From Todiramphus chloris collaris (taxonomy: Eukaryota; Chordata; Aves; Coraciiformes; Alcedinidae), in assembly GCA_025345505.1 (NCBI GenBank), contig JANVCC010000183.1, forward strand, positions 727,698-791,697: a DNA stretch of 64,000 nt. Direction: 5' to 3'. The translations under genes were made by a program, and so were the position numbers. The notes beneath the pieces were generated by a model. It ran no database searches. It was not told where the DNA came from and was given only the letters and a program-made list of their open reading frames with translations. Below, piece after piece: positions 28,279-52,604 of this stretch. Within the stretch, counting starts at the first letter, position 1. Each line of letters starts with the position of its first letter.

Positions 28279-29122
28279 GGTACCACTCCACACGCTGGGC
28301 GCTGCCTCCCTCTAGCCCAGCATCCCCGAGGGGCTCAGCCAGCACCCTGCTCCTCCTCCTCTTCCTCCTGCTCCTCCTCCTCCTCGCTGGGAGGTGGGAA
28401 CGCAGGTGAGCCGAGAAGCTGGAGGTGACAGCTCAGCTTATCGCTTCATCCTTCAAAATCGCTGATGTTTGGCAAGACCTGAGGCCCTTTTGGGGATAGC
28501 TGGAGCTGGGAGGATTCTGGAGCACTGGTGCTCAGCGAGGTGGGACTGAGCTTCTCAGGATGACTTGTTTGTCAGCCCTGGGGAGGACATCAGCATTGTC
28601 AACCCCCCCTGCTGGCTTCTGGCAGGGGTTGAAGGGCACGTGGCAGGTGAAAAAAGGGCTGAGAGAAGACCTGGGGTCTTCTTGCTTGGGGTAACCACCC
28701 TCGTACTCGTGTTTGCTCCTACAGATGAAGCTGAGATGGGCTCGTTTCTGCCGTGCCCGACCCCGGCGGGGGCTGCGGGACTCATCCTGCCCTGGCCAGC
28801 CCCGAGGCCTTAGTGACACCAGGGCAGAGCAGCTCAGCGGCTTTCTCCTCTCCCTCCGCCTCCCTATGGTGCTGGCAATTAGAGCCAATTAGCCAGAGAC
28901 AAATTAAATCCCAGGTGGTTATCAGCAAAATAAACCTCTGGGTGATCTGCAGAGGTCCCTTCCAGCCCCGCACCGTGCTGCCCTTCTCCCAGGGCACGTT
29001 CCTTGGGTCGCCCTCCCGTGCAGTGGGATGGTACCCAGGCCCCATCCTGCTTCTTTCCCTGCCTCGTGGCAGGGTCTGAGCGGGGCCGGGGCTGAGCTGA
29101 GCCCCTCTTTGTGCCTCCACAG

Positions 29123-29319
29123 CTGCCGTGACACCGTGCACCTCTCCACGGGTGCCCCAGACCGTCCCCATGGACCTGCGGATCGGGCAGCGCGTCGTCA
29201 AGCCCGGCTCGGACACCACGTTGCTGGCCCTGAAGCACACGCAGCAACTGCAGCACCAGCTCTTCCTCGCCAGTCTGCACCAGCAGCAAGTGGAGCAGCT
29301 CGCCCACCAGCACGTGAGG
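29123..29319 (+). CDS. HDAC7: HDAC7 coding exon 1 (CtBP motif)
   Basis: The acceptor is tgcctccacag. The ATG at 29170 opens PMDLRIGQR, which contains a CtBP-type PxDL[SR] motif, followed by a Gln/Leu-rich segment. Two in-phase donors compete: after CAC at 29313 (GTGAGG) and after AGG at 29319 (GTACGG). The later one is preferred because the Arg before the junction then aligns with human HDAC7. Upstream, 15 codons are open to the acceptor, so an earlier exon could add residues, as in long class IIa isoforms. Confidence 0.93.
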
Positions 29320-32300
29320 GTACGGGCACCCCAGGGGACACCCGTGCCCGCTTTTGGGAGCCACTTAGTGAGGGCTGGGCCACTTGGGAGAGGTTGTTTT
29401 GCCCCCAGAAGATGTAGCTCGTGGCAGCGTCCGTCTTGGGGCTGCTTGGCCCCAGGTCCCATCTCTGGCAGGGAGATGAGTCCTCGGTCCTCAGCTCCAG
29501 AGGTAGGGCAGGTTGTAGATGGCCACTGCCACGTGAGCTGTGGCCACCTCCAAGCTCAGAGATCACCCCCAGCCTGGCCCAGCCATGGGGCTGCTCCGTG
29601 CTCCCGGCAGGAATCCTGGCACCCAGCTGGGATGTCCCTTGCGTCCCATCGCTGCTCATCCCTTTGCCGTGCTCCTCAGAGGACCCCGACTCCATCTCCC
29701 CTCTCCGGGTGCTGGAAGGTGCAGTTGTGCCCCAGCTCTGGACTGAACAAGCCCAACCTCATCCATGTCTCACGTGCCACGTGCTCTGCCCTCGAGCACT
29801 GGTCCCAGTAACCTCGTCTGGCAGCTCTGGGGGCACATACTGGGGCTTTCTGGGAGAACATCAGCTTGGTCCACAGCAGGAGACTTTGAGATGCTGCCGC
29901 TGCTGCAACTGTCGGGTGCTTGGCGTGGGCTGAGATCAGGTCCTCCCCGAAAACCTCAGCTCTGGAAAATGCCAAGATCCAAACTTTTAAGACAAATATA
30001 AGATTTTATTTCTGTTCTCCTCTTCGGTCAACGCTGCTGTTTATTTTTGGTGGTGTTACAACGTGCCCTGGCTGCAGAGATGCCCACACACCATGAAAGG
30101 CAGCGAGTTGAAACCACCTAGTTTGGGTTTTACGATGTCCCCGGGGGAGAGGGTCCCCGGAGACGACGATGCGTCCGGTTGGCTCTGATGAAACAACTTC
30201 AACGGGTTCTTCTCAGCCAGGGCTGCCCATGGTGCTTCCAGAAATGACACGATGGGTCGTTTTGGACGTGCTCCGTCACCACGTCGTCCCCTCGGGGGGC
30301 TCGGGGAGGAGCTGGGGCTGTGGGTCCATGCTGGGTGAAGCCTGGGGAGCTCCTGGTGCTGATGTCCCTCTCCTCTCGCAGGTGACCATGGAGTCCCCGC
30401 ACCACGAGGCCGAGCCCGGGCACCAGGAGCAGGAGCTGCGCCAGATCCTCAACAAGGACAAGAGCAAGAGAAGTAAGGACTTCGGTGGTGGCACCGGGTG
30501 ACGCATCCCTGCCCGAGGAGCCGTGTCCCCAAACCCCCAGCATGCCTCTCATGGTGGGAACAAGGTTGTAGTGGCCTTTAGAAGGGGGTTCTGCCCTTAG
30601 CTAGACCTTCCCCTGGTCTACAGGCGTGTGATGGCATCCGTGTCACTGAGCAGCTCTGTGCCAGGCTCTGTGCCAGCCCGGGAGGCCACGCTGATGTTGC
30701 CTCCTGCCCTTTGGCCACCGCACTGGAGCTGCTGGTGGCCGCACTGGGCAGGGTGTGGGTGCACCCCTGGAACCTGCCAGCCCTGGGCTGAGCACCCAAG
30801 GAGAGCATCCCTGGGCTGAGCATCCCTGAGGAGAGCTCGGGGGGTCCCCAGTGGGGTTACGCTGGGCAGGGTTTGCAAAGCCCGCCCGGCTGCGATCTCC
30901 CTGCGCCATCTAGTGCCAGGCCCTGCGGGGAGCTCGCGGGGAGCTCGCAGGGAGCTCGCAGGGAGCTCGCTCACAGCTTTTCACCGAATCCCAGCATGGT
31001 GGGGGATGGAAGGGACCCCTGGGGGTCACCTGGTGGCACCCCCCTGCCCCAGCAGGGGCACCCAGAGCAGGGGCCCAGCAGCGCAGGGTCCAGCCGGGCT
31101 GGGAATCTCTCCAGACAAGGAGACTCCACAGCCTCTCTGGGCAGCCCGGGCCTTGACAACCCTCGTGGGGAAGAAACCTCAGCTCCAACCTAAACCTCAA
31201 AAGAGTCAGGCTCCTGAGATGACCTGGGAGGGCCGAAGGTGGGTCAGGGAAATTTCCATCACCGTCTGGGAAACTCCAGTTGCCCCAGTTGGCCTTTATC
31301 TCCCTGAACCAGCCTTGACTGAGAGCTGCACCGAGCATCTCCACAGGGTCCATGTGCTTGTAGGGGTTCTCCAGCCATCCTGGCATGACCTGTGGGGCTC
31401 TGGGACCATGTTCACGTCTGCAGGGATCCTGTCGAGTGCTCTGTGTTGGCTCTCAGCCCCGTGTGGTCACTGCTGGTCTTCCTGCAGGTGCTGTGGCCAG
31501 CACAGTGGTGAAGCAGAAGCTGGCTGAGGTCATCCTGAAGAAGCAGCAGGCAGCTTTGGAGAGGACCAGCAACCCCAACCCTTCAGCCATGCCATACAGG
31601 TAAAGCAAGGGTATCCTCTGGCCTGTCCTGAGCAGGACATCTGCTCAGAGTCTGGGAAAGGTGGCTTTTTATCTTGGGCAAGGTCTTGCCATTATCTTCC
31701 ACCTCCTGGTCCTCGGAGATACTGTTTCTCTCTCGGCTGCTGGGGTGAGGTACCTTGGTTCTGGGTGAAGCTCTTGCAGGAGGTGGAGGAAGTTCCCACG
31801 TTGTTTTCCCTAAGCCTTGTTGGAGGTTGGTGGCTTGTCCCACTCTTGACCCCACAAGTACTGTCAGGCTTCTTGGCTTTTGTCCCGAGACAAGGCAAAA
31901 ACCAGCAGCTGGCCCCTCCTGCAGGTGCTGGTGGACAGGACCAGCCGTGGTGGAGGCCGTAGCCTGGGTGCTCCGTAGCTGCCAACCGGGAAGGGTCGCT
32001 AACAAGGTGGCTTCTCCCTGTAGGTCCCTGGAGCCTCTGGATCCTGAAGGCCCTTCCCCTCCTGTGCTCAGCACCTTCCTGCCCCCCATCCCCAGCACTT
32101 CCCTCGACCCCCCGGAGCACTTTCCGCTGCGGAAGACAGGTACGGCCGCGGCCCTCCTGCCATCACACCCTGGCTGGCCCCACAGAGCCCGTCCAGCTTC
32201 TCCTCCACGGGCAGCTGGGACCAGGACAAACCACCTCATCTCCTCCCCGCAGCCTCTGAGCCCAACCTGAAGGTGCGGTGCAAGCCCAGGAAGTGCCTCG

Positions 32301-35300
32301 ACCGCCGCAAGAACCCCCTGACGCGGAAGGAGAGCGCTCCCCCCTCGCTGAAGAGGCGGCCGCCCGAGGCCATCGGTGAGGGCTTCACCTGGATGGTGCC
32401 ACCTCGGGGGGGTTGGAGGGACCTTGGGGCCAGGCTGGAGCAGCTACAGTCTGCCCAGATTCCTGCACCACGTCTGCCTGGGGCTCGTGTCTCAGGCTTG
32501 GCACGTTAGCGGTGCCCGACTCGAGGTGCAGCCCAGGGAGGGAGGGCTCTGGGTGGAGGGAGCTGGAGAGATGAACCAGGAGAGGATGTGGCAGCAGTTG
32601 GGCCCAGGATGGATCTACAAGGCTGGAAGGGTCCAAGGCCATGAGCAAACATGGCTGGGAAATGGCCTCAGGTTGCCCCAGGGGAGGTTGAGGTTGGGGC
32701 TGAGGAACAATTTCTTCAAGCCACACAAGGGTTGTCCAGGGCTGTGCCAGGCTGCCCAGGGCAGGGGGGGGAGTCCCCATGACCCCTGGAGGGGTTTCCA
32801 AGCCCTCTGTGGAGCTGTGGTGCTGAGGGACAGGGGTCAGGGGTGCTGAGGGACAGGGGTCAGTGGTGCCCTGGCAGTGCTGGGGCAACGCTTGGACTCC
32901 AGGAGCTCCAAGGTCTCTGCCAACCCAAGTGACTCCACGAGCCAGTGGTCAGGGTCATCACCCTGGTGTGGTCCCCGCCACGCTGGCAGAGCATCTCCAT
33001 CTCCACCGTGCCGGGAGGAGCTCTGGCCCTAGGAGAGCAGTGGGTGGCTGTTGGAGGGCAGGCTCTGAAGGGCTGGGGCTGGGCACCCTTCCTGCGGGTG
33101 CCCGTGCCCATCACCCCGGTTTCTGACCCCGCGCAGACTCGTCCCCGAGCAGCAGCAGCACCCCCGTGTCCGGCTGCAGCTCTCCCAACGACAGCCTCCC
33201 CGCCGAGCACGGGGCCCTCCCCGCCGCCTCCGCCATGGCCCACGAGGTGAGTTCCCGGGGTCCCTGATGCCAGGGTTGTGTGGGTGCCCCCCCCAGGGAC
33301 CCCCCCGAACCCCCGCCAGGAGCTGCCCCCAGCCCAGCCCAGCACAGAGGGTTCCTTCGCAGGGCACCCATCGCATCCCCTGCTGCCCCCGCGGGGCCCG
33401 AGATGCTCGCCCCGGCCCCCGATGTCCCCTCCGGGCAGCCAGGGGGGCTCAGCCTCCTTGTTGGGTGGCTCATCCCGGGCCAAGCCCCTCTGCCCGGCGC
33501 TGGGCACCGACGGCTCTCGCCTTCGCCGCAGGCACCCCTGGCCCAGCGCCTGATGCTGCAGGAGAGCTCCCTGGCCCAGTTTGCCCTGCAGAGCGCGGCC
33601 TCCCTTCCCGCCATCACGCTGGGACTGCCGGCTACCGCCAGCGCCAGGGTAGGTAGCCAGGCTGCAGGGAGCCCCAGGGCTGGGCAGAGGGGCCCCGCGG
33701 GGCAGGGGAAGCCCCATCCCCTGGGGTGCTGCTGGGTGTGTGCCCGCACTACCCGCGGGCACGGCGAGACTGTGCCACGAGCCCCCTCCTCGTGCCCTGT
33801 CGTGGTGGGTCCCTAACCCATCCTCCTCCTCCTCCTCCTCTTCCTCTTCTCTGCAGGGAGAGGCAGATCGGCGCCCTCTCTCCAGCCTGGCCCACCGGGT
33901 GCCCGTCCTCAACGGGCCCGTCCTGGCGGGCACACACTCGCCCATGTTCATCCCGGCCGGCTTGGAGCAGCACGAGGCTGGGAGCCCCTTGTCCCCTCGG
34001 CTCCAGCCCGTCATCATCCTCGAGCCCTCGGTCACCCACGCTCCGTTGGTGGCGGGTAAGTGGCGAGCTCGGTGACAGGAGCTGAGGCACCACAGCTCCA
34101 GGGCTCTGGAGCCCCTCCAGGGGTCACGGGGACTCCCTTCCTGCCCTGGGCAGCCTGGCACAGCCCTGGACAACCCCTCTGGAGAAGACATTTCCCCTCT
34201 GCTCCAACCTCAACCTCCCCTGGGGCAACTTGAGGCAGGTTCCTCTTGTCCCATGGCTTGGGGACAAGAGATCTCACCCCCTGTGACCCCCCCTCCTGCC
34301 AGGAGCTGGCAGAGCCAGAAGGGCTCCCCTGAGCCTCCTTCTCTCCAGGCTGAACCAGCCCAGGGCCCTCAGCCGCTCCTCAGCACCCTTGTTCCCCAGC
34401 CCCTTCCCCAGCTCCGTTGCCCTTCTCTGGCCACGCTCCAGCCCCTCCGTGTCCTGCTGGGAGTGAGGGGCAGGTTTTTTAGGTGCCAGGGAAGCCCAGT
34501 GGCCTTTTTTCCGTGCCTTTCCCCTGAGGTGGGGCTGAGGGAATGGAAGATGTTGGTCCAGGGCTGGGTCACCATCATTCTTAGGGCTGTGTGGAGACAG
34601 TGTGGGCACAGCCCACGCCTGCCATGGACTGAGCTCTGCAGGGCGTCCCGTCTGCCCGGTGGCCAATGCCAGCCCTCACCTCTCCTTCCTCTCCCCTCCA
34701 GTGCCAGGTCTGGGAACAGTCCCCTTCTCCTTCGCCCCCTCGCTCATCTCCACGGAGCGCCTGTCTCTCCCAGGGCACCATAAACCGCTGGGCAGGACCC
34801 GCTCGGAGCCCCTGCCCCAGAACCCGAAGGCCATCCAGCAGCAACTGGTGTACCAGCAGCACCACTCCCAGTTCCTGGAGAGGCTCAAGCAGCAGACGCA
34901 TCTGGGCAAGGTAAGGCAAGGAGGCCCAGCCCGGGCGCGCGGGTCACAGAGCGCTAGGGGTTGGAAGGGACCCCTGGAGGTCCTCAAATCCCACCCTGCC
35001 ACCCGAGAGATGCGGAGACGGGTGCTGGAAGCGGGCAGGGTGGGCACTGCCAGGAGCCAGCCGGGGGACCTGCCCAGCTTCCCCGGCGTGCTCCTCGCCC
35101 CGAGATGCTCCCTCCAACCCCCCCATCCCCGTGTCCTCCTGGGCCCGTCCGTGTCCCGCGTGCCGACTCGCGTTCCCCCGCAGCGCATGGCCAAGTCCAG
35201 CGAGAAGCCGCGCCTGCGGCAGATCCCCTCCTCCGAGGACATGGAGGCCGAGGGGACGCTGCCGGAGGCCGGGGCCGAGGGGGGTGACCCGGCCAGGACG

Positions 35301-38300
35301 CGCGTGGAGCCCCCGCGGCCGGGGAGTGCTGTGAAGGAGCCCGAGAGGACGCAGAAGATGATGCAGCCTCAAGAGGAGCTGGTCCTCCAGCAGGTAGCCC
35401 AGGGCGAGTGGGTGAGGGAGCCCATCCAACTGCCAACCCCAAGCTGCCTTTTCCCTGCTAGGCACAGGGAGCCCCTGGGCAAAGGGGATGATGACTTCTC
35501 TGGTCATCCCAAGCTGCCTCAAGTCCTTGGGGCAGTCTGAAGGCTCCAAAGGAGGTTCAGGAGTGGGCTGGAAGAGGTGGAGTTCCCAGCCTCGTCCCTC
35601 TCCCTGCCCTGCAATTTTGAGTGGTGTTTTTTTTTCCGCCCCGTGGTTTCTCCCATCTGGGGCTGTGCCCAAACCCACCAAAGCTGGTAGAACCCCGAGC
35701 CCGGGAAGATTCAGAGCAGACCCCAGGAGCCACCTCCATAAAGTGGGGCTGGGGATGTGGGCACCACATCTGGGGCAGGACAGGGACAAGAGCTGCAGCC
35801 ACCCCTGGTGTCAGCAGAGCTGGGCATCATCCCCAGATCAACGGGCATCATCACCCCAAGGTTACTGGGTCCCATCCCTCCCCAGACCGCCGCTCCTCGC
35901 AGCACAGCCCAGCAGAGAGCAGCAGATGCTGCCGAGATGCCTCCCAGCTCCTGCAAACCTTCTCCCAGCAGGGATGGGGCTGCCTCATCCAGACCCCTCG
36001 GCGCAGGGCTCCTTTGCCAGGGTCACCCTGGCTCCGGGTGCCACCTCCTCACGGCCACCTCCCCCGGCAGGCTTACCTCTGGGATTCCTACCAACGCGCC
36101 CAGCAGCAGCAGCTCCTCAAGCGACAGCCCTCGGCCGACTGCCCCGTGGTCCCCACCGCCCACGGCGGGCACAGGCCCCTCTCCAGGGCTCAGTCATCTC
36201 CTGCCACCGCCACCGTTTCCCTCCCAGCCCAGGACACGGCCTCCAAAGCTCTCTCCCTGCCCGTGCAGGAGCAGCCGGCCAAGCCCCACTTCACGACAGG
36301 TAGGACGCGGGGTCGGAGCGGCCGGGACCCCTGGGAAGGACCCCTGGGAAGGACCCCTGGGAAGGAGCCCATGGAGGCTGGGATGTCCCAGCCGGCCCGG
36401 GGACAGCGGCTCTCCCTGCGCTCGCAGGGCTGGTGTACGACTCGGTGATGCTGAAGCACCAGTGCTCCTGCGGGGACAACAGCAACCACCCCGAGCACGC
36501 GGGCAGGATCCAGAGCATCTGGTCCCGTCTGCAGGAGAGGGGCCTGCGCAGCCAGTGCGAGGTGAGCGGGGGGATACTGGTGCCAGCAGATCTCCTGCTA
36601 ATGGTGTGATGGGTGCTCCTGCTCCCACCACCGTCCCTCTTGCAGGACCAGGGCAGGGATTGTCACCCTGAGCTGGGCACTGGGGAGGCTGCCCCTCAAA
36701 TCCTGGGGTCAGTTTGGGGCCTCTCACTCCCAGCAGGACACGGAGGGGCTGGAGCGTGGCCAGAGAAGGGCAACGGAGCTGGGGAAGGGGCTGGAGAACA
36801 AGGGTGCTGAGGAGCGGCTGAGGGCCCTGGGCTGGTTCAGCCTGGAGAGAAGGAGGCTCAGGGGAGCCCTTCTGGCTCTGCCAGCTCCTGGCAGGAGGGG
36901 GGGCACAGGGGGTGAGATCTCTTGTCCCCAAGCCATGGGACAAGAGGAACCGGCCTCAAGGTCCCCTAGGGGAGGTTGAGGTTGAAGCAGAGGAGAAATG
37001 TCTTCTCCAAAGGGGTTGTCCAGGGCTGTGCCAGGCTGCCCAGGGCAGGGGGGAGTCCCTGTGACCCCTGGAGGGGTTTCCAAGCCTCCGTGGAGCTGTG
37101 GTGCTGAGGGACAGGGGTCAGGGGTGCTGAGGGACAGGGGGCAGGGGTGCCCTGGCAGCTCTGGGACAACGCTTGGACTCCAGGAGCTCCAAGGTGTCTC
37201 CCAGCCAGACCCAGTCTGCACTCCCAGCTCTTCTCAGCCTGTTTGCAGAGGGCTGGGACGTGTCTGCTGCTGGCAGTGCCCAGTTGGACCACGCTGCTGG
37301 GACCACCTCCAGCTTCGTCTGACCCTGGGAGCCAACTCTGCTGGAAGCTGGGTGGGGGGGAGAGGCACGATCCCTTCAGGGATTTTTCCCCAGCTTGGGG
37401 CACATCGGTGTCAATTCCAGCCCATTATAAACTTTATGCTGGTCTGGCTGGGCTGACTGGTCTGCAGAGGGCTCTGCGGTGGTCGGAAGGTGGTGCTGGT
37501 GGTGGCATTTCCTACCTGGGGGTTCAAATCCAGTTCCAATCCAATGGAAGAAGCACCACGCTTGGCCTCACCCAGTCGGGTGACACGAAGGGCGGCCGGT
37601 GTGGGCATCTGGGTGAGCCCGTCTGTCCCAGTGGGACCAGTCTGGTCACAGTTCTGGTCTGCCACAGTGCCTGCGGGGACGCAAGGCCACCCTGGAAGAG
37701 CTGCAGTGCGTCCACACGGAGCGGCACGTCTTCCTCTACGGCACCAACCCCCTCAACCGCCTGAAACTGGACAACGGGAAGCTGGCAGGTGAGGCCACGG
37801 CCACCCCCATCCTTGGGCAGCTGGCACCTTGTTTCTGGCCGTGCCAGCTCCCGGAGCACCCGCAGCCACGGGGACCTCCCCGAGAGGGGTCTGGTTCCCC
37901 AGCCCGACGTCCTCGCCGTGCCCTCTCTCTGCAGGGATCCTGTCGCAGCGGATGTTCGTCATGCTGCCCTGCGGAGGGGTGGGGGTAAGTGCTCGGGATG
38001 CTCGGGATGCTTTAGCACAGGGTTGGTCCTCTCCTGTCCCCAGCGAGGGCCTCCTCATGGGCTTGAGTGCAGAGGGAGCTCCCGAAGCCTTTGGGCTACC
38101 AAGGTTGGGCAGCCTGAGGTGGGAACGCTCCATCTGTGGGCAAGGTGTTGTGTCGGAGCTTCTCCTTGTCCTTGGGATGCTCCTGAGCATCCCACCCTTG
38201 AAGAGAGATCCTTGACGCTTCCTTCCTCCAAGGGATCGAGCAACCCAAAGCCCCTGGGAGATCTTTGGAGGAGGTTGGGGTGTTGGCAGGGAGCGAGGTG

Positions 38301-41300
38301 GTGGGACAGTGGGGGGAAGCCCCCAGCCATGGTCTCCGCTGCGGGCCAGCAGCTCACTGCTTCCCTCCAGACCCTTCTGTGGCCTCTCCTTCCATGCCTT
38401 GCCACCCTGGTTTCTCTTCATTCACAGCGTTCTCCTCTCTTCCTCTCTTCCCCCTCCCTCCCCGCCTCTGTCCTCCTCTCTCTCTTTCAGGAAGGGTCTC
38501 ACTCCGTGCCTTCCTGCTGCCTCTTCTGGTTCTGGTTCTTCTCCTCTCCTTGCCCCCGCTGCTGGGCACCAGCTCCTCTCCGCCCCGTCCGCCTCCACTT
38601 TCCCCGCTCTGCCTCCCCCTGCCCACCTCCTCTGGCCCCTGCCCCGAAGGCTGGGGGTGGGGGGGGGCTGGAGCTGCCCCTCTCGGGGGGCAGAGGGGAC
38701 CCTTTGACTCGCACACATGGCGTTGATCAGAAGAGACTTTTGAGTTTTCCGGCTCTGGCTCGGCCCTTGACGTGATCCTGATCAAACCAAGATGTTTGGT
38801 TAAACAATAAAATGAGATAACGAAGGTAACGAGCGTTTTCTCCGTCCCTCCTTCCAGCCCCCCCCCCCGGGTGCAGGGTGAGGTCCTCGCTGCAGAGCTT
38901 GGCTGGGGGCTGGAGGCACTGGAGGAGCCTCCATCCTGGCACCAGGGAGCTTCTGAGGAGCTCGTCCCACGGTGTGCGAGGTGGCACCGGCACCACGTTG
39001 CCCGGCCCTTTGGCCTGTAGGGGACTTGGTGCCCTGTCCCCGAGCAGGGAGCATGGGTCCCACAGCTGAGATCTCCTCCCTGGTGCCTTGGCCCTGGCTG
39101 AGCCATCCCCTGGTTCCTAGGTGGACAGTGACACCATCTGGAACGAGCTGCATTCCTCCAACGCTGCCCGGTGGGCCGCGGGCAGCGTCACCGAGCTGGC
39201 CTTCAAGGTGGCCACCAGGGAGCTGAAGGTAAAAGAGGCTTCACGTGGAGGTGCCCGAGCTGGGCATCGCCCCACGGCCGGGCAGGAGCGGGGCTGTGGG
39301 GTCCCACTGGTCAGCACTGGGTGCTGCCAGCCCTGTGCCACTGCGGGCCCCATGTCCCCAGCTGGCCCCGTGTGGCAGGAGAGGGGGGTGATGCTGGGGC
39401 AGCATCTCTGACCACCTCACCTCTGTGTTGTCCCCAGAACGGCTTCGCCGTGGTGCGGCCACCTGGACATCACGCGGATCCTTCCACTGCCATGTAAGCT
39501 CTCTGCCCTCTGCCATGGGGCTCAGGGGGGAGCCCCAAAAACCCAGCTCCAGGGCCCAAAATCACTCCGGGGTGGCCCATCCATATCCATGTTGGGGGGA
39601 GAGGGGTGGGTTGAGCCCACCCTTCGAGGAGCCAGGAGAGAAGGGTGATCAGGAAGGACCCCAGGGCACGTAACCAGCTCTGACTTGCTCTTTGCAGGGG
39701 ATTCTGCTTCTTCAACTCGGTGGCCATCGCTGCCCGGCAGCTGCAGCAGAAAGGGAAGCTCAGCAAGATCCTCATTGTGGACTGGGTAGGTCCCCTCTGG
39801 CCCCCAGCGCGTCCCCACCGGCAGGTTCCTGCACCTCCTCCCAGCTCTGGCTTGGAGCTGGGCTGCAGAGCAGCAAAACCTCCTCCTTGGGGGGCCCAGC
39901 TACCAGGAGTGGGGCTGGGGACCCCCCAGCACGTTGGGCTGGGGGACCAGATCCTGGGGATGGAGGGCCCAGCCCTGGAGCAGGGTGGAGATCCAGTTGC
40001 TTGTAGCCCAGTTAGGCTACTGGGCCACCTTGAAGGCTGAAAACAAGGAGCCTTCTCCTGGTTTCTCCCTCTAGGATGTTCACCACGGCAACGGGACCCA
40101 GCAGATCTTCTACAGAGACCCCGAGATTCTCTACATCTCTTTGCATCGTCACGACGACGGGAATTTCTTCCCCGGTAGCGGGGCCGCCGACGAGGTAAAA
40201 AGCACCAGGATGGTGACTGGGGGGGCTTCAGAGCCCCAGGAAACCACAGGGCAATGGCACTGGTTCTGCTGCTCTTCAGGAAGCTTTGCCAGCCTAGGCA
40301 GCTCCTGTAGGTCCAGGACACTCAGTCCTGCCTCCCCGAGCTGCCCCAGCATCCCCACCCAGGCCTTCACTGCTGCCCTTCCTCTCGCACAGGTCGGCGC
40401 TGGCCCCGGCGAGGGATTTAACGTCAACATAGCCTGGACTGGGGGGCTCGACCCCCCCATGGGTGACCCGGAGTATCTGGCTGCTTTCAGGTGCTGGTCT
40501 TGTGTCTCTTCTCTTCTCTCTGTGTCAGGCTGAGCCAGAGCTCAACAGAGTCCCAGCGTGGTGGGGTTGGAGGGACCCCCCTGGTGGCACCCCCCTGCCC
40601 CAGCAGGGGCACCCAGAGCAGGGGCACCCAGAGCAGGGTCCAGCCGGGCTGGGAATCTCTCCAGACAAGGAGACTCCACAGCCTCTCTGGGCAGCCCGGG
40701 CCAGGCTCTGCCACCCTCACACCAAAGAACTTTCTCCTTCTGGGTCCCAGTTGGTGCCCGGTGCCCCTGCTCCTGGCGCTGGGCACCACTGAGCAGAGTC
40801 TGGCCCCAGGCTCTCCCCCCTGGGGCCCTTTAGCTCTTGCTCAGCATCGCTCAGCTCCCCTCTCCGGCTGCTCTTCTCCCGTTGCACAGCCCCAGGTCCC
40901 TGGGCCTGTCCTGGGCACAGAGATGCCCCAGCCCCTCAGCGTTTGGTTTTTGTGTTTCCCCCACGCAGGACGGTGGTGATGCCCATCGCCCACCAGTTCT
41001 CCCCCGACGTGGTGCTGGTGTCGGCCGGCTTTGACGCAGCCGATGGCCACCCACCCCCCCTGGGTGGCTACAAAGTCTCTGCTAAATGTAAGGAGGTGGG
41101 AGCCGCTGCCAGCTCGGGGAGGGTCGGTCCCCCTGCCCACCCGGGCTGGGACCACGACGCGGGGGTGGCAGCTCTGCAGGGAGCCAGGGAAGACCTCTGG
41201 GGTTGTGCCAGCCCCGGCGGTTGGCACAGGGAGGTTGGTAACCCCCCTCCTTGGGTCTCTCCAGGCTTTGGCTACATGACGAAGCAGCTGATGAGCCTGG

Positions 41301-42500: not shown

Positions 42501-43419
42501 TGAGCGGCGACGTTCTCCGCTCCCCTGCTTCCAGGAAGTTGTCGGACTCTCCCGAGCCCAGCGCTCGCTCTTCACTCCTGGCTTCCCGTTTGCCACGTCC
42601 TCCTCGCTCCCCGAGCCACGGTCCTGAAACTGCCCGGACCTTTGGCCGCCTCCGTGGCTCTCCCAGGAAGGAGCCTCCTGGAAGATGTCCCCCTGCTCGG
42701 GACTGATGGAGAAACCACGACCTCCCTCTGCAGGGCCTGGCGAGCCCAGCGTTGGCCACCAGTCCCCGGCCGTTGGCACCCGGCGCCCCGGGGGGTTGCA
42801 CGTGAGAGGCCCCCGGGGCAGCCGGGCACAGCCCCTGCCTCCATCTGGGACCTTCCTCACCCGGGGGCAGCTGAGGTGGGCACGGGGCTGGGTGCGGTGG
42901 CCGTGCCATGGGGGGGTTAGAGCCACCCCGGGCCCTGCACCCCAAGATGCTCTCGGGCCGGACGGCGATGCCTCGGGGGAGCAGCCTCAAGTTCTGCTCG
43001 GGAGGGACGGACGGACTCTGTGTCTTCTCCTGAAGCCTTCCCCGCTGCCCTTCCTCAGCACAGGGGGCACAAAGGGGGCAGCCAGGGTCCCCGTGCTGTC
43101 GGGGGAGGGAAGCTGCAGGGGACCCACCACTGCCCCACGCCCGGGGATGAGCCCTCGGCTCCCCTTTGCACTATGTCCCCGGGCCGGGTGCTGATGGAAA
43201 CTCCCCCGACTCCTTCCCAGGAGGCTGCCCCTTCCTCGGGACGTCACCGCGGTGCCTTGAGCCCTGAGCTGAGGGTCCGTGGCGCTGTGGACACGAGGTC
43301 CCCAAAGCAGGGGGTCTTCCAGCCACCCTCCCTGCAGCCCCCGGCACCCCAACCAGCTCCTCTTCTCCTGAGCTCAACTCCAGTCCTGTCACTCGGTGCT
43401 CGGCTCCCCCGGGGGCTCA

Positions 43420-43545
43420 CGGAACCAACGAATGGTTTGGGGGGGAAGGACCTTTCAAGGTCCTCGTGTCCCACCCCCCTCCAGGGAGCAGGGACTTCTG
43501 CAACCCGAGCAGGATGCTCAGAGCAGGGCTGGGCTGCCCCAACCC
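43420..43545 (-). mobile_element. CR1 LINE fragment within HDAC7 3'UTR
   Basis: Antisense: ggggaaggacctttcaaggt, then cccctccagggagcagggac. It lies between the stop codon and the poly(A) signal, so it is probably part of the mRNA. Confidence 0.8.
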
Positions 43546-43821
43546 CCAGCACCACAGTGCCTTGGGGTGGCAGGGTCAGGACCCCCCCCCAGAATGAGGT
43601 GTCCATCTGGGTTTACCTTCTACCCATCTCCTCCTGGGACAGGGCCTGGGGTGGCTCCACCCCGAGAACCTTCCCCCTGGGTGCCAAGGGGGTGCCCCGC
43701 CAGGACTGGTGCCCGCTCGGGTGTCACGGCACTGGGGATGTGGGGACAGTGGGGCACTGGGACCTCGTGGAGCTTGGGAGGTGACCCAGCTCCATCGCCA
43801 AGGCTGAGGGAGGACATTTTG

Positions 43822-43885
43822 TAAAAAAGAAAACAAACAAAAAATAACAAAGAAGGAGAAAAAAAAAAAAAAAAAAAAAACCAAA
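43822..43885 (+). repeat. A-rich tract before HDAC7 poly(A) signal
   Basis: AAAAC/AAAG runs ending in about 22 uninterrupted A. Likely to cause oligo-dT internal priming. Confidence 0.9.
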
Positions 43886-43907
43886 ACCACAACGAAACCT
43901 TTGGAAG

Positions 43908-43913
43908 AATAAA
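43908..43913 (+). terminator. HDAC7: HDAC7 poly(A) signal AATAAA
   Basis: The AATAAA hexamer is followed within 10-25 bases by a T/G-rich element (attttgtgtctctg), the usual arrangement for cleavage. It is about 1.4 kb after the HDAC7 stop with no better signal between. Confidence 0.75.
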
Positions 43914-44611
43914 ACATTTTGTGTCTCTGAGCTGGGGCCCAGCAGCAGTGGCCGGTGGCATGGAGACCGGAGCGGGGGCGATGGCCCTGAGGTGACCTCG
44001 GGGGTGGTGGGAAGGACCTTGGACACACGTCGGTGTCTGGGGGAGGTGGTGAGGGCCCAGGGGTGGTCCTGCCATGGTGATGCTGGAGCCCAGGTCTGGG
44101 TGGCTCAGGTCCTGGGCGCTCCCACCGCTTCGGGTGCGATCAAGGGAGGGACTTTGTGGAAGGGACCTCGTGGGAGGGACCTCACTGAGCTCCCAGCTGC
44201 CTGACTGTACCAGCTCAACATCAGGCAAAGGAGTCCCCACCACAGAGCTGATGGTGGACATCTCCTCTGCAGCCATCCCCGCGTGTCCTGGACCAGGAAG
44301 GTGAGACCCTCAGAGCGGGCACCAGGTCCCTCAGAAGTCACTTGTGCTTTCCATCCAGTGGGAAGGTTCCTTGGAGTGGTGATAGCACAGCCACCTACCC
44401 CAAGGATGCCGTGGGATCACCCAGCATCCTGCTGGGATCACCATCAGCCAGAAAATCCACGGATGGGGTTTACTGGGGCTTTGCCCCCCAAGATGTGATG
44501 ATGCTAAAGGCTGGAACATCCCCAGCTCCATCCCTCCTTGCCCCACACCTTTTTCTCCCCCCACCTTTCACATCTTTGGTCCCAGTGACGACCACGAGCC
44601 ACCCAGAGCCC

Positions 44612-44887
44612 GGCTTTAAATGGCATTTTTATTTCTTCTGACGCACATCCAGATCCTTTTAAAGGCCGCGATCGGCTCCCCGAGCAGGGAACCCACTCCG
44701 AATGTACATTAAAAAGTCAAGAATGATCCAGAAAAAAAGAGAGCCCGGGCCCCGCTGCCGCTTCTCCAGGACTCTCTGGTGGGCAATAAAACAGCAGCGC
44801 GCGTTGAAACGCTGCTCTTGAGGCTGGCCAAGGATTCCTCTCCCGCAGCCTCTTCAACAGGGACTTTTTTCCTCCCCCTTTTCTCTG
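44612..44887 (-). other. Possible 3'UTR exon of TWIST3 (or other minus-strand transcript)
   Basis: Read on the - strand, a T-rich tract ending ctccttgtag at 44888 is followed by about 270 AT-richer bases and AATAAA (44628-44633 on +). There is no coding potential. It lies on the right strand and at a plausible distance to be the second, untranslated TWIST3 exon (about 6.2-kb intron; TWIST2 has a far longer one). An unrelated antisense RNA is also possible. Confidence 0.3.
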
Positions 44888-45074
44888 CTACAAGGAGCAA
44901 AAAATACCTGATTTTTCCGTTGCCCGCTGTGAATAAAGCTGGCCCAGCACCAGCACTGAGGGAGGGGGGCGGCCTCGTGATGCCACCAGCACCATTTCCT
45001 TGGGGAAACAAAGGGATTGAACCCTGGAAAATTCTCCCTGGACTTCATTGGCATCGCCTGGAAACGCTGATGCC

Positions 45075-45300
45075 CCTCCATGATCCACCCCCCCCATCTC
45101 CATGTCCCCCACCCAGCATCTCCATCCCCCCCCATCTCCGTATTCCCCCCCCCTCCCAGCATCTCTATTGCCCCCCACCATCTCCACCTCCCCCTCACCA
45201 TCTCCACCACCCTCGGCATCTTCATCACCCTCCTGCCATCTCCACCCACCCCCCCAACCTCTCCACATCCCCCCCCCAAACCTCATCTCGCCTCCATCTC
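45075..45300. repeat. C-rich low-complexity tract
   Basis: Degenerate ccatctccaccccc-type units over about 220 bases. Confidence 0.85.
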
Positions 45301-46386
45301 ATCCCTGAACCTCCCCCCAGAGCAGAACCACTCCTGAGATGCCAGGAGGGAAGAGGGAGGGTCCGTGGGTAACGTCTCCATCCCGATTTTCCAGTCATTC
45401 CAAAGAAATCGCCTTGTTCCACCTGGGAGGCTGATTTGGAGACAGGTCCACAGGGTAGGAGCCAGCAGAGGACGTCGGGAGCCTTGGGGTTTGTTGAGGG
45501 GTTCATCAAACCCACCCCCCAAAATCCACTTCAGGTGCCCAGCAGCAGCTCCAGCCAGGGCATCGCTGCGATGCAACCCCCAAGAGCAGGGGGAAAGTGG
45601 GGGGACACCCCCCCCCTCCCCAAGCTCTGCTCGCTCCTTGGCCAAACCCTCAGCCGTTGCCTTCTCCCATCCCTGGAAGGGGTCGCGGGAAGTGGCGAGC
45701 GCTGAGAATTGTCCTGCTTGGTCCTGGATGCCCCCACCGAGCTGGGGACAGCGGCTTTCCTGGAGGCTCGGGAAGCCCGCGGAGAAGAAAACTCGCCCAT
45801 CTCTTACCTGCGAGTCAAAAATAAATTACACCCTGGAAAGGTTCATGTGCAGCAGCTCGTCCCCAGAAAAACCACCCGGGTCCTGGTCCTTCTGCCCCAG
45901 CCCCGGGGTCTGGAGGGGGCCTGGTGGGGTGGGCAGGGGTCTCTCCCGCTCCCTGGGGTATCTCAGGTGCCGGAGGAGAGCGGGGTGGCTGAGTCAGGGC
46001 GGCTGGGCACTGGGGAGCTGCTGGTTGTTCCCATCGAGGTGGAGAGCTGAGACCTGCGGGAGATGAACGGGGTCAGCCCGAGGGGCAGGGGTTGGGAATC
46101 CAGAGCCCGGCTGGGAAGCTGAGAGGGGGAAAAGCCACGTTTGGTGCCCGGTTCCTCAGCCGTCGTGCTTTGCACTCACACATTTGCCCAGAGCCACAAG
46201 AGTTCGCCTGGAAAACGTCCCGGCACCCAAGTCTGTGAACCTTCAAAAAATAAACTCGCCACGTTTAGCCCAAATAGGCTTCTCCGGGAGGATGGAGAAG
46301 GGAAGCAGCTGAACCACCCATCCCTCCTCCCTTCCCCTTCCTTATCCCGGGATGGACCGGTCCTTCTGGAGGGTGACAGGCTGTCT

Positions 46387-46430
46387 CCAGGGTTGTCCCC
46401 AGGGCTGTCCCCAGGGCTGTCCCCAGGGTG
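46387..46430. repeat. 12-bp minisatellite
   Basis: About 3.5 copies of gtccccagggct. Confidence 0.9.
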
Positions 46431-47659
46431 GGCGATGCCAGAGGGACCCCCCCTGGGTGTCTCCAGCCGCTGCCGGGCGCCAGCCTGGTGCCAGGGGCCG
46501 GGGTACCGGTGAACCCAGCAGACCAGGCTGGTGGCCTCAGTCAGACCTTGGGCAGGGGCAACCGGCTCCTGCGAGGGCTGGAGATCAGAAGTGGCTCCAG
46601 TGGGTCTTGAGGGACCCACGGGGCTTCATTTTGCTGTCCCTGGTGCTGTCTGAGCTTCCTCCTCATCACCCGCAGGGCTCTGGTTTTATTTCATCTCCCG
46701 CCCCGCCGCCTCTGCTGCTTTGCCTTCTGCTTTTCTAATCCCTCCTTGTGCAATAGCGGAGACCTTTAACTCCCTGGAGAGAAGCCTGGAGAGGAATAAA
46801 TCAAACCTTCCAGTAATTCACTGCTGAGGTAATGCAGACGGGACCAACGAGCTGCTGGGGGCAGCCCCTGCCCACCCTCGGCTGGCAGACGGGGCAGAGC
46901 CTGCCCGGGAGGGATAAAGAACCCAAAGCTCCACGTGTCCCGTTGTTGAGCCCTTGGGACCGTGGCCAGAAAGGTCTGGGATGGGTACCACGAGCATCCC
47001 CCGTGCTCCAGGGCAACCGAACAGGCTGGTGTCCAGCTGGCCCAGCAAGGGATGTCCTGGGGTGTGGGAAGCACTGAAATGAACAGCTCGACCCAGCTCG
47101 TGTCAAAAAAAATCAGCTCCCTTGCCTCATGGCATGGGGTTCTAGCCAAGCACCCACGGTGTGATTCCGAGGGCTGCGGGACCCTCCAGCCCCGTTCCCA
47201 GGGTGTCTGGTGGGGACTGGTGGGGACTGGTGCAAGGAGCCGGGTCTCAGCTGCACGAACACCCTCGGCTCTGCCCAGATACAGCCCCGAGAAAAGGAAA
47301 TCAAATGCAAAGCCTCTCCCGCTCCGATCCCAGGTGCCTCCCGGTGACAGTCGCCGATGAAATAGGGGCTGGATTCAAAGGTTTCCTCCGGGCCAGCCCC
47401 AGCAAGCCCAGCTCCTCGCGGGGATCGTAACCCCGCAGGCAGTTGAACGCTCCGAGGGGCTGGGGCTGCCTCTGGCACTTTCCCCCACTCTTAATTTTAA
47501 CTAATCCCAAGCAGCGGGGAGAAGCTGCTTTCCCGTGATGGAGAGGAGCCTGGATCCCCCAGCGCGGGTTCGGTCTTAAGTCTTTTATAAAAAAGTGGAT
47601 GATTTTGCTGGAAAAAAAGGTTTTTCTGACAGAGAAAGAAAGAAAGAGTTCTCCCAAGG

Positions 47660-47845
47660 AACAAGCACCAGGAACCAGCCTCAAGTTGCCCCAGGGGAGG
47701 TTCAGGTTGGAGCTGAGGAACAATTTCTTCCCCTCCAGGGTTGTCCAGGGCTGTGCCAGGCTGCCCAGGGCAGGGGGGGAGTCCCTGTGATCCCTGGAGG
47801 GGTTTCCAAGCCCCCCGTGGAGCTGTGGTGCTGAGGGGAAGGTGA
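47660..47845 (+). mobile_element. CR1 LINE fragment
   Basis: Sense 3' part of the young subfamily: ctcaagttgccccaggggag to the tggagctgtggtgctgaggg block. Confidence 0.9.
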
Positions 47846-48014
47846 TGCCACCTCTTGCTCCTGCACAGCAGTCAGGGTGTCCCCTGGCAACCCTGGCACG
47901 GTGTGGGGGGGTGGTGGGTGAATTTGGCATCCCCAGTCCCTTCTGGTCCTGCAGCTTCACCCAGAGCTGGTGCGTGAGACCAGCCCTTGGGGCTGGGGGG
48001 CTGTCCTGCATCCC

Positions 48015-48122
48015 CCATCTAGGGGGATATAGATCCCCATCTAGGGATCCCCATCTAGACCCCCATCTAGATCCCCATCTAGATCCCCATCTAGGGATCC
48101 CCATCTAGATCCCCATCTAGGG
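48015..48122. repeat. Minisatellite (CCCCATCTAGAT)n
   Basis: Seven to eight copies of 12-15-base units mixing ccccatctagat and ccccatctaggg. Confidence 0.92.
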
Positions 48123-48129
48123 TGGCTCC

Positions 48130-50820
48130 TCCTGCCCCACAGCACCAAAGCTGGAGCTTTCGAGGCACCGAACACCTCATCTTCTACGTGTCCACCCTGC
48201 AGACGCCCTGGCAAAGGCTCTGCCCTCCTGGGGGATGTCAGCAGACTTTGGAGGACACTTTGGACCTCTAAACCTGCTCGTCCACACCAGGGCAAGGAGC
48301 AAATCCTGGGAGGATGGGAACACAGAGCACACAGGGAACAGAAAACTCTCCCTGGCACAGGCTGCCCAGGATTTGGGCAACTCCCCATCTCTCCCGGGAG
48401 CTCAAACCAAAAGAGAAAGCAAGGTGGTTCCTGCCAGGACTTCTCACCAGGCTTGCTCTGACCCAACCCGGGGCTCCTGGGCCACCTCGGCCAGTTTAAC
48501 CAGCACTGAGTGAACACCTCCACTTCTAGCTGCTCATAAAAGACGGGCCCAGGAAGCTCAGCCGGATGGGACCTCAGCTTCTTGGGGCAGATGCTGCTTT
48601 AAAACCATTTTCCAGGTGGATCCGAAGAGCTCCAGGCGTTCTCCCCAAGCTCCTTCAACACCCCACTGCTTCAACACCGCCCAACGAGACCTCCTTAGAA
48701 CTGAAGAGAAAGCGAAACAGCCGCCTGGCAAAGCAGGCTCCGAGCAAGAGCAGCAAGCCCCAAAGGGAAGATTTATCCAAGGTCTTTCAGGAGACACAAT
48801 TAAGTGAAGGCAACGGCGAGGAAGACAATAAATCCAGGGAGACGAATGAAGGGCGAGGAGCATCACCCCTCGGCGCTGCCCCAGCCTCCCCCCCACCAGC
48901 TCCGCATCCGAGTCTCATTTTCTCCTCCGTTTTCACGCGCTCAGGTCTGTGCCGAAAAACCCTGAGCTCGGGCGACTTCAAACGTTCTCTTTTTTCTCAC
49001 CTGGGGGCTCAGTCCCCTCTTTCTTTCCCCAGATGATGTCTCCTGGTTCCCAAGGGCACAGCCACCTCCAGCCCTTCCAGCTCCTTTTGCTATTTAACAG
49101 GACGAGCTCCAGCGGAGCCCAGTACGGCTGCGCTCCCAGCACCATCGGCTGCTTCATGGGGGACAATTACAGCCCCCATCGTCGCGAGCACTGGGATCAA
49201 TCCCTCAGCGGGGGGAGAGATGAGGCTTCCCCCTCGGGGCTCTTCCCTCCTCCTGTTCCTTCCCTGCCTGACTGGGAGCTGCTCGACTGGGACGCGAGGC
49301 CGACTGGTTGGCACGATGCTGGCGACCGCCCGGTAGCGGTGGGAAGAGCGCCGGAGCGCGCCAGGCTGGCGGGACGGGTGGGGTTTGGCATGGAGGCTCT
49401 TGCGTTTAGCAGCGAGGGTCTTAAAGCTCAGCGAGGGTCTTCAGTTCCTCTGTGTGCCATGGGAACGTGATCCCCGCCCAGCACTTGGCTTAAATGAACT
49501 GGTTCCCCAACGGCCTGGGAGCTGCACATCACCCGCACGCCAAAAAACCTCTCCGGCAAACCCAGGAGCAGCCCCTGCCTCTTGGCCGTGTCTGCAGAGC
49601 CCCCGCCCAGGGTAACCCAGCTGAGAACCAGAACTCCCAGCTCTGCCAACCTGCGATGCCCAGAGAAGGGCGAGGGAGGCTCAGGGAGGGGCTTCCTCTG
49701 CCTGGGGAAGGGGCTCAGCATCCCCCCCCACCCTGGCCCTGGCAGCCTTTTTGGCTTCTCAAAGGGAGAAGAGATAACCACTGGTCTGGTTCTGGTTGTC
49801 CCAGATTGGGAAGGTGTCCCTGGCAGCACCCACCACGGCTCAGGGCACCAATCCTGCTCCCAGAGAGAGTGCCTTTCAGTCTTGAACCAGCCGGGTCTGC
49901 CCCAAAGCATGGCGATCTGAGAAAAGGGGCAGTTTCAGGTCGGTTAGAAGAGATGGCAGCCAGGTTTGAAGGAAAACAAGTTTAAATGTGGCACAAGCTT
50001 AAATGAAATTCCCCCCAGCCCGAGGCAAAGCCAAGGGCAGGAGGGGCAGCGGTGCTGGGGACGCACACCCCCAGCCTCGGCACATCACTTGGGTCAGCAG
50101 GGATTGGATTGGGGTCTTTCAAGGGTGGGTGCGAGGAAAATAAAATGTGTCCTCTTGCAGTTGGCTTCACCGGGGGACTCTGGGGGCTCTCGCCCCCTGT
50201 GCCAGGGCTGGGTCAGAGCCCGAGGAACAGCAGCAGCCCTGATCCTGCTTAGGGGAGGATGAGGACTCTCTGGAGCTGGGCCGGACTCCCGTGATGTGTT
50301 CCTGAAGTCCAGAGCTCATGGCTCCAGAGCTTTCCACAGGAACCATCACGTAGCTGACCCTTCTCCCCCGCCCGTTCCCCCTTTTCTCCCAGCCCAACGA
50401 GACCTAAAGCTCAGAAAATGGGATTATTTCCCTCACCAGCAGCTTTGCCGGTGAGGGAAAGGGTGCTCATGGTGCTGAGTCCATCACACCGGGGTGCTGC
50501 GCACACCCCACTGCCCTGGCATCCTCCTCAGCACTTCATCCCCAAAGCGATCGCCGAGCCCGTCGTCTCCACAGAGCTTTGGGAGATGGGTGGGAGAAAA
50601 CCCACCGGGCTGGAAGCCCCAGGGCCACCCAAGGCCCCAGGGCCACCCGAGGCTCCGGGGAAGGGCTGAGTTTCACCCGGGTGGCCGGGCTGAGGCTGGC
50701 ACCAAGAGCTGGGCTGCGGGGTCGCCGCTGGGCTCGCTCGCGTGACTTTGACACCTCGGTCGCCCGGGCACCTTCGGGAGGGTGTCGCTGATTTACGCGC
50801 CGTCCCGGGAGAGGGTAAAT
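48130..50820. other. Convergent intergenic space, right part
   Basis: CR1-free, mixed-composition DNA downstream of TWIST3. No ORF with recognisable homology; it would be intronic if TWIST3 splices to the exon at 44.6-44.9 kb. Confidence 0.6.
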
Positions 50821-50828
50821 CGGATATT

Positions 50829-50834
50829 TTTATT
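50829..50834 (-). terminator. Possible proximal poly(A) signal for unspliced TWIST3
   Basis: AATAAA on the - strand about 320 bases after the TWIST3 stop, in a local A/T-rich patch. It would end an mRNA that does not splice the 3'UTR. Confidence 0.35.
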
Positions 50835-51139
50835 TTTTAAGCCCTCGTTTTCAACCTTTCGTTAACTGCCCCCGCTAAGCGAGCTCAGGCGCTTTAGGGC
50901 TCCGCCGCTCGACCTCCCGCAACGTCCCCCCGGCCCCGGTGGGCTCGGGACCGGCCACCTCCTCCTCCTGCCCGCCCGCCCGCCGGCCTCGGCGTCTGGG
51001 GTTCGTTAGAGCAAATCATTTGCACGTGGAGAGCGAGGAGGGGGCGGCCGCTGAACCTTCCCCCCCTCTTCCCCGCAGCGGCACCGAGCCGGGGCGGCGG
51101 GCGGAGGGCACGGGAGGTGTCGCTGGGGGGCTGGCGATA

Positions 51140-51146
51140 CCTACCC
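51140..51146 (-). promoter_or_regulatory. TWIST3: Possible splice donor just after the TWIST3 stop
   Basis: On the - strand the TGA is followed within a few bases by GGG|GTAGGTAT, a good donor. TWIST1 and TWIST2 both have an intron in the 3'UTR, so a 3'UTR intron here would be the conserved structure. Confidence 0.4.
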
Positions 51147-51150
51147 CGGC

Positions 51151-51636
51151 TCAGTGGGACGCGGACATGGACCAAGCCCCTTCCATCCTCCAGACGGAGA
51201 AGGCGTAGCTGAGCCTCTCGTGGGCCAGGTAGTTGCAGCTGGTGATCTTATGGTCCAGCTCATCGCTCTGCAGGACCTGGTACAAGAAGTCTATGTAGCG
51301 GGCGGCCAGCTTGAGGGTCTGGATCTTGCTGAGCTTGTCGGAGGGCAGCGTGGGGATGATCTTCCGCAGCTCGGCGAAGGCGTCGTTGAGCGACTGGGTC
51401 CGCTGGCGCTCCCGCACGTTGGCGATGACGCGCTGCGTGTGCGCGTCCTCGAAGGACTGCGGGACCGGGCTGCGCTTGCTCCGCTTGCCCTGCGGCGACG
51501 GGGCCCCGCGCTCCTCGGCCGCCTTGACCCCCTGCCCGCGCTTCCGCAGGCATTTCTTGTGCAGCCGCTCGCCTTCCTCCTCGCTGGTGACCAGGCTGCC
51601 TTCGGGGGACTCCGGGCACATGTTTTCTTCTTTCAT
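51151..51636 (-). CDS. TWIST3: TWIST-family bHLH transcription factor, probably TWIST3
   Basis: A single-exon gene of 161 residues, the usual TWIST2/TWIST3 size. TWIST proteins bind CANNTG E-boxes as dimers with E-proteins and control mesoderm, neural crest and skeletal development. Residues 1-60 hold an acidic SEEE patch (18-21) and basic NLS-like KKCLRKR and KRSKRS. The bHLH spans about 68-119: basic region [10 protein letters not shown], with Glu76 as the E-box contact, and helix 2 [20 protein letters not shown]. The C-terminal WR/Twist box [20 protein letters not shown] is unchanged. NDAFAEL in helix 1 and [10 protein letters not shown] before the WR box differ from mammalian TWIST1 and TWIST2 (NEAFAAL; SYV), favouring the third paralogue. 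The neighbour HDAC7 supports this. Met6 is an alternative start; Met1 has A at -3. Confidence 0.94.
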
Positions 51637-51960
51637 CTTCTCGGCACCCGGCGGGTGAAGGGCTCCGGGCGCTCACCGGCCACGGCGCATCGGCGAAGCG
51701 GCCCGGAGAGCCGGAGGAGCAGCCCGGAGCACCCACCCTCCAGCCTCCCCAGATGTCCCGAGCCTTGCGGAGCCCTCCAAGGAGCTCGGTTGGTTTTTCC
51801 TTTGGGCTACGGAGAGGAGGGCGTTCGAATAACTCCGGGGAACGGCTCTTGCTGATAGGACGAGGAGGACCGTGGGCGGACCAGGCACAGACCAATGCAG
51901 CCCTGCGAGGTAACGCAAACATCAGTGGAGCTTATGGGTTCCAGATTTCCTCCCTCCCTC
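51637..51960 (-). promoter_or_regulatory. TWIST3: TWIST3 5'UTR and proximal promoter region
   Basis: GC-rich DNA directly upstream of the TWIST3 ATG. An inverted CCAAT box (CCAAT on +, 51892-51896) lies about 256 bases before the start codon, next to a GC-rich gggcgga element. No clear TATA box is seen. The transcription start is not determined. Confidence 0.5.
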
Positions 51961-52337
51961 CTCCACCGACGCCCCCAAGCCCTCCGGCACAGATGCTCCT
52001 GCCTGCTGCCCGGATGTCAGGGGACACTGCCTATGCTAATGGGAGCTCCAGCCATGGAGGTCAGGGAAGGCTTTTTTGAGCTTTAGTCTTTTTTTTTTGG
52101 TTGTTGTCCTCTTTTTCTGTTTGTTTGTTTCCATTTTTTTTTAAGCCCAGTTGACCCTGCAAAAGCCACCCAGAAGTATTCGCTTCTTTGATTCGGAAAA
52201 GGAGACTTTATCTTGGAAATATGGAGGAATGGGTGTTTCCATGAGCTACACAGGTGCTCTCTGAACCCAAAGGAAGAACCAACGGCGACAGGCATCCACA
52301 CTGCTCTTCAGAAGCTGAATACTTCAAAACGAACTTG

Positions 52338-52604
52338 AGTTTGCATCCATCCATCCATCCACACATCCATCCACACATCCATCCATCCATCCATCCATCC
52401 ATCCACACATGCATCCATCCATCCATCCATCCATCCATCCATCCACCCATCCATCCACCCATCCATCCACCCATCCATCCACACATCCATCCATCCATCC
52501 ATCCATGCATCCATCCATCCATCCACACATCCATCCATCCATCCATCCATCCATCCACCCACACATCCATCCATCCATCCATCCATCCATCCATCCATCC
52601 ATCC
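52338..52604. repeat. (ATCC)n microsatellite, about 267 bp
   Basis: Over 60 tetranucleotide units with ACAC and CCACCC interruptions. It sits about 700 bases upstream of the TWIST3 start. Confidence 0.97.

Follow-up and report, generated by a model that had tools for sequence, protein, structure and literature searches.

The HDAC9-TWIST1 block is a well-studied case of disease-gene enhancers hidden in and around a neighbouring gene. Twelve candidate enhancers have been described at this locus, of which eight are active and three contact the Twist1 promoter, and human enhancers are stated in the same source to function in fish even without alignable sequence (PMC6233932). Other class IIa HDAC genes have been found close to TWIST genes. 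Zebrafish hdac4 adjoins twist2, as in human, and a pseudogene related to hdac7a adjoins twist3 on LG23 (PMC3426487). In chicken, LARP4, COX14, ACCN2, HDAC7, TWIST3, SLC48A1 and NEUROD4 are listed within 0.51 Mb of LGE22, in a passage that enumerates the genes of a QTL interval and gives neither orientation nor gap (PMC4592986). Three ancestral Twist genes are mentioned in PMC4996418, citing Gitelman 2007. TWIST3 is stated to be absent from mammals (PMC3210159); zebrafish twist3 is instead called a homolog of mammalian twist2 in a passage of PMC7176127. Two further studies name chicken TWIST3, one on leg-muscle expression, in its discussion (PMC8461557), and one on the chick limb, in a gene list (PMC13061413).

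The window analysed here is a stretch of 64,000 nucleotides from Todiramphus chloris collaris, located on contig C121 (878 kb) of an assembly of 1.17 Gb in 889 contigs. It hosts an HDAC7 gene on the plus strand and, on the minus strand, a TWIST gene denominated TWIST3 in the following, its most likely identity. The original prediction of a class IIa HDAC and a TWIST gene arranged tail to tail about 8.7 kb apart was confirmed, the two being separated by 8.65 kb; its starting point, 29123, lies 47 bases ahead of the first coding ATG of HDAC7. The features identified are listed in Table 1. As in chicken LGE22, HDAC7 and TWIST3 share one short region, and a NeuroD-type gene, found 77 kb beyond TWIST3, matches the chicken gene list (PMC4592986); unlike in that list, SLC48A1 was not found in the window, where the human protein gave no convincing match (best E 0.29). 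The Pfam HRG family matched neither the own genome nor prokaryote controls, and this search is uninformative because the controls also failed to match. In zebrafish, too, an HDAC7 relative lies beside twist3 and hdac4 beside twist2, but the zebrafish HDAC7 copy is termed a pseudogene (PMC3426487), while the HDAC7 gene of the window is open wherever it has been spliced. A class IIa HDAC likewise adjoins a TWIST gene in the HDAC9-TWIST1 block with its described enhancers (PMC6233932); the HDAC7-TWIST3 pair is far more compact. The linkage of HDAC7 to TWIST3 is thus already in print for chicken and zebrafish, and is less new than had been supposed. A three-fold convergent pair including TWIST3 was not met in the literature searched, a scope that leaves out most subscription journals. 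A tRNA-Leu called by ARAGORN in the gap (45001-45094) was taken as spurious: it sits at a C-rich tandem repeat, and Rfam had no match in the window.

Table 1. Coordinates of the features of the HDAC7-TWIST3 locus (positions in the window)
Feature	Position	Strand	Evidence and remarks
HDAC7 first coding exon region (MDLRIGQR...)	29170..29349	+	tblastn E 1.7e-7; match coordinates, exon ends inexact
HDAC7 exon region	30379..30474	+	tblastn E 4e-6
HDAC7 exon region with putative MEF2-binding helix	31490..31600	+	tblastn 81% identity, E 2e-11
HDAC7 exon regions, two overlapping matches	32001..32380	+	tblastn E 5e-13, 2e-15; ends approximate
HDAC7 catalytic region and C-terminus, 12 exons	37665..42500	+	in-frame AG/GT joins, class IIa GGHDL motif
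HDAC7-TWIST3 intergenic gap	42501..51150	.	8650 bases, about 3% repeat-like
CpG-rich stretch covering TWIST3	50500..51999	.	GC 0.66-0.68, CpG obs/exp 0.77-0.90
TWIST3 (most likely assignment), 161-aa bHLH transcription factor, single open frame	51151..51636	-	own-genome search, alignment, tree

The HDAC7 gene appears intact. When a human HDAC7 query was compared with the window by tblastn, it mapped on the plus strand from residue 1 through the C-terminus; the match coordinates approximate the exon regions. The helix encoded by the third region in Table 1 is presumably the MEF2-binding helix. Exons between 32.4 and 37.6 kb are known as translated, unspliced stretches. Downstream, the spliced exons form a single open protein ending in ...EEEEPMNQ, with the stop codon at 42498-42500, and eight variants differ in small splice choices. 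Among solved structures, the catalytic exons are closest to human HDAC7 (3c0y, 572 bits), followed by HDAC4 (2vqq, 533 bits), and no HDAC5 or HDAC9 chain was present among the 60 of 136 matches listed. The spliced frame features the histidine that in class IIa enzymes replaces the catalytic tyrosine, a substitution described in PMC7912504. From what is known of the family, the protein is predicted to be a class IIa co-repressor.

The TWIST gene is similarly intact. Its best match among solved structures is TWIST1 (8osb, E 1.9e-32), and the bHLH domain is recognised by Pfam HLH PF00010 with 64.8 bits (cut-off 20.7). The last 24 residues, which we take to be the TWIST box (WR motif), are identical in all five TWIST proteins aligned, two of which are human sequences. 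For the bHLH domain and C-terminus, dN/dS was 0.09 versus TWIST1 and 0.03 versus TWIST2, and for the N-terminus 0.60 versus TWIST1, values to be read keeping in mind that synonymous change is saturated in several comparisons. Family knowledge predicts a bHLH factor that would dimerise with E proteins at E-boxes. A threonine at position 17 (51586-51588) precedes the SEEE motif. Such a residue is treated as a mark of TWIST2 in PMC4996418 and in this respect speaks against the TWIST3 assignment; if the assignment holds, the SEEE rule would mislabel TWIST3 as TWIST2. Some 0.7 kb ahead of the TWIST3 start, on its upstream side, lies a tandem repeat made of 65 copies of CATC (52344-52604).

Three HDAC-TWIST pairs are found in this genome. 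A genome search with the window TWIST protein yielded 23 matches (E<=1e-6). Three are TWIST genes (the gene itself at 100%, one at 71% over its full length, one at 83% over residues 50-161); the remaining 20, with 34-60% identity, belong to bHLH genes, and no fourth TWIST was present among the 23. TWIST2 (C11:8232008-8232487, minus strand) is intact, 160 aa long and 96% identical to human TWIST2; TWIST1 (C8:1055698-1056033, minus strand, match coordinates) is intact, 186 aa long and 95% identical to human TWIST1. A search with the HDAC7 catalytic exons returned 28 matches, nine on C121, eight on C11, six on C8 and five on other contigs. Those on C11 (8101089-8145813) and C8 (876517-979580) belong to class IIa HDAC genes, named HDAC4 and HDAC9, respectively, from their TWIST2 and TWIST1 neighbours and not from a tree. 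On all three contigs the HDAC exons are on the plus strand, ahead of a minus-strand TWIST, so that each of the three TWIST genes has a convergent class IIa HDAC. HDAC9 and TWIST1 are separated by about 76 kb at most, the last HDAC9 exons being unplaced, and HDAC4 and TWIST2 by about 86 kb, a figure that depends on placing the last exon by a weak collinear hit (8146337-8146408, E 0.10). Chance adjacency was rejected: under a crude model with uniform placement, the probability that three TWIST genes all lie as near to one of three class IIa HDACs as observed is about 8e-12, before orientation is considered. HDAC5, the fourth class IIa gene, had no match among the 28, for which gaps in the assembly or limits of the search may be responsible. 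An HDAC domain in a single frame, 285 aa long and with 43% identity to the catalytic region of HDAC7, was also observed at C618:2581377-2582231 (plus strand), and is possibly a retrogene or a foreign sequence.

The TWIST protein of the window is 73% identical to TWIST2 and 71% to TWIST1, which share 82% with each other. In the best of five trees (AU 0.95) it has a long branch of its own, attached to the branch that joins the TWIST1 and TWIST2 clades; the alignment comprises 159 gap-free sites in five proteins, three from this genome and two human. The nearly equal distance from TWIST1 and TWIST2 and the position outside both clades in the best tree make TWIST3 the most likely assignment. The first eight residues, MKEENMCP, are also closer to MREEQTCG, the start of zebrafish twist3 as translated from an oligonucleotide printed in PMC3210159, than to the TWIST2 start MEESSSS. 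By the AU test, grouping with bird TWIST2 is rejected (0.005); the other three of the four alternatives, which join the window gene to TWIST1 of bird (0.072) or human (0.072) or to TWIST2 of human (0.14), are not. The proposal that the locus is a third copy of an ancient pair is accordingly favoured by the three convergent arrangements and by the best tree, and is left less secure by a short alignment on which most alternative placements survive. The contrary outcomes named in the original prediction, a position inside the TWIST1 or TWIST2 clade or a recent retrocopy coexisting with intact TWIST1 and TWIST2, did not appear, within the same limits of alignment and placement.

The three pairs would derive from one class IIa HDAC and one TWIST gene that were already convergent neighbours when the vertebrate genome duplications took place, with HDAC9-TWIST1, HDAC4-TWIST2 and HDAC7-TWIST3 as surviving copies and TWIST3 later lost in mammals. 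The window very probably hosts the HDAC7-TWIST3 member of this set of ohnologous pairs, and the evolutionary part of the original prediction is right in outline; the pre-duplication date is inferred, given a tree of bird and human proteins. It could be argued that the window TWIST was instead copied from TWIST1 or TWIST2 recently, by retroposition or duplication, and landed beside HDAC7. The gene is an intronless single open frame, though TWIST1 and TWIST2 are each single-frame as well, and the grouping with bird TWIST1 survives the AU test. Such an origin is nonetheless extremely improbable and has been set aside on identity, synteny and tree: a recent copy would hardly be only 71-73% identical to its source, have a long separate branch with the bird TWIST2 grouping rejected, lie under a CpG-rich stretch, and take up the same tail-to-tail position as the other two genes; moreover, counterparts bearing its name adjoin an HDAC7 relative in chicken and zebrafish (PMC4592986, PMC3426487).

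A common origin of the pairs could also reflect separate segmental duplications rather than two whole-genome duplications. Human class IIa HDAC genes are located on the four HOX-bearing regions. In this genome a Hox9 search gave two matches, one on C8, 3.3 Mb from TWIST1, and one on C46, and none on C11 or C121, so that the link to the HOX paralogon is just partly seen; as with HDAC5, further genes may have been missed through the assembly or the search. With HDAC5 not found as well, the paralogon appears incomplete, which speaks for separate duplications. The Hox9 gene sharing C8 with HDAC9-TWIST1 points the other way, as does the placement of the human HDAC genes, and class IIa HDACs are stated to have arisen in the two vertebrate rounds (PMC3426487). 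Separate duplications are thus considered improbable, and the vertebrate genome duplications remain the preferred source of the three pairs.

The resemblance between the TWIST1 and TWIST2 loci extends to a further gene. A gene which we take to be FERD3L (C8:1073551-1073730, minus strand) lies about 17 kb beyond TWIST1, on the TWIST strand. About 41 kb beyond TWIST2, again on the TWIST strand, an intact bHLH gene encoding 179 aa has been identified (L002, C11:8273926-8274078, minus strand). Over the 62 residues of its domain it matches FERD3L at 40 and a comparison gene, presumably PTF1A, at 38, and it groups with FERD3L with 92% ultrafast bootstrap in a seven-sequence domain tree. The occurrence of a Fer-type bHLH gene after both TWIST1 and TWIST2 on the same strand is apparently new, and suggests that an HDAC-TWIST-Fer trio, seen in one genome, was the ancestral unit. 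No Fer-type gene was found on C121, where TWIST3 and the NeuroD-type gene were the only ones among the 77 bHLH matches of the genome search. A broader and rather unlikely scheme may be drawn from these data. A three-gene block, HDAC-TWIST-Fer (FERD3L-type), would have been copied by the vertebrate duplications; HDAC9-TWIST1-FERD3L and HDAC4-TWIST2-FERD3L-like would have kept order and strands, and HDAC7-TWIST3 would have lost the Fer gene, shrunk about tenfold and retained TWIST3 enhancers within about 22 kb. If so, HDAC7-TWIST3 would be a naturally very small regulatory block for TWIST, well suited to studying why the two genes remain linked.

The leading idea for the persistence of the linkage is that the pair was at first a regulatory block in which enhancers for TWIST lay within and next to the HDAC gene, by analogy with the HDAC9-TWIST1 enhancers shown by others. 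To look for elements of this sort, the repeat-masked window (13% masked) was compared with the masked 200 kb of the HDAC4-TWIST2 locus (C11:8080001-8280000, 17% masked); some of the TWIST coding sequence was lost to the mask, since the background set included bHLH loci. This comparison gave 36 matches at E<=1. The strongest nine (E<=7.1e-10) correspond to eight exons of the HDAC gene and to TWIST coding sequence. The weaker 27 comprise 16 A/T runs (ten at an A run near 43.8 kb, five near 53.6 kb, one at 52.1 kb), three weak HDAC exon matches and eight isolated matches. Three of the latter are T runs, one resembles what we take to be a CR1 repeat tail, and four, at 28813, 57675, 35776 and 16396, are neither; these are short (E 0.04-0.76, best 0.039) and differ in order from C11. 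Reversed controls gave six rows for C11 and eight for the window, all at the 43.8- and 52.1-kb A/T runs. The residual matches slightly exceed the control (four versus none), which is not quite nothing, and are taken as chance. No convincing non-coding element common to the window and the 200 kb locus was therefore recovered in this masked comparison, which would miss diverged elements. Exonic enhancers like those of HDAC9 might leave excess constraint at synonymous sites, and none was seen in the shared HDAC exons. Four-fold sites summed over exons are identical in 55/160 cases versus HDAC4 and 34/103 versus HDAC9, with low and uneven identity per exon (highest 9/15 and 5/9); this is weak evidence, as HDAC9 gave seven of the 11 exons tried.

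These results bear on whether the linkage persists passively, as a legacy of the duplications left unbroken on a small, slowly rearranging chromosome, with HDAC7 hosting no TWIST3 enhancer. Such an account stands at about an even chance. It fits a comparison able to recover exons and TWIST coding sequence yet no convincing paralogous element, the poor likeness at four-fold sites, and the little room offered by HDAC7, whose catalytic region spans 4.8 kb, while that of HDAC4 takes up about 45 kb and that of HDAC9 at least 103 kb. Elements diverged since the vertebrate duplications, however, would often escape detection, and human enhancers without alignable counterparts can function in fish (PMC6233932). 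In addition, eight active enhancers are known at TWIST1-HDAC9 (PMC6233932), and an HDAC7 relative is still found beside TWIST3 in chicken (PMC4592986) and, as a pseudogene, in zebrafish (PMC3426487). Enhancers for TWIST3 in the HDAC7 introns, as originally proposed, are a reasonable hypothesis by analogy with HDAC9, one to which the sequence comparisons lend no support; that an enhancer of the ancestral block persists in the compact HDAC7-TWIST3 locus seems possible, if somewhat doubtful. With three copies of the arrangement present in a single genome, and with one being compact, it would become possible to ask directly whether enhancers or mere history account for the linkage, and why mammals could lose TWIST3 yet keep HDAC7.

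As a minor observation, the 3' sides of TWIST3 and TWIST1 share a 95-base match (64.6% identity, E 0.002).
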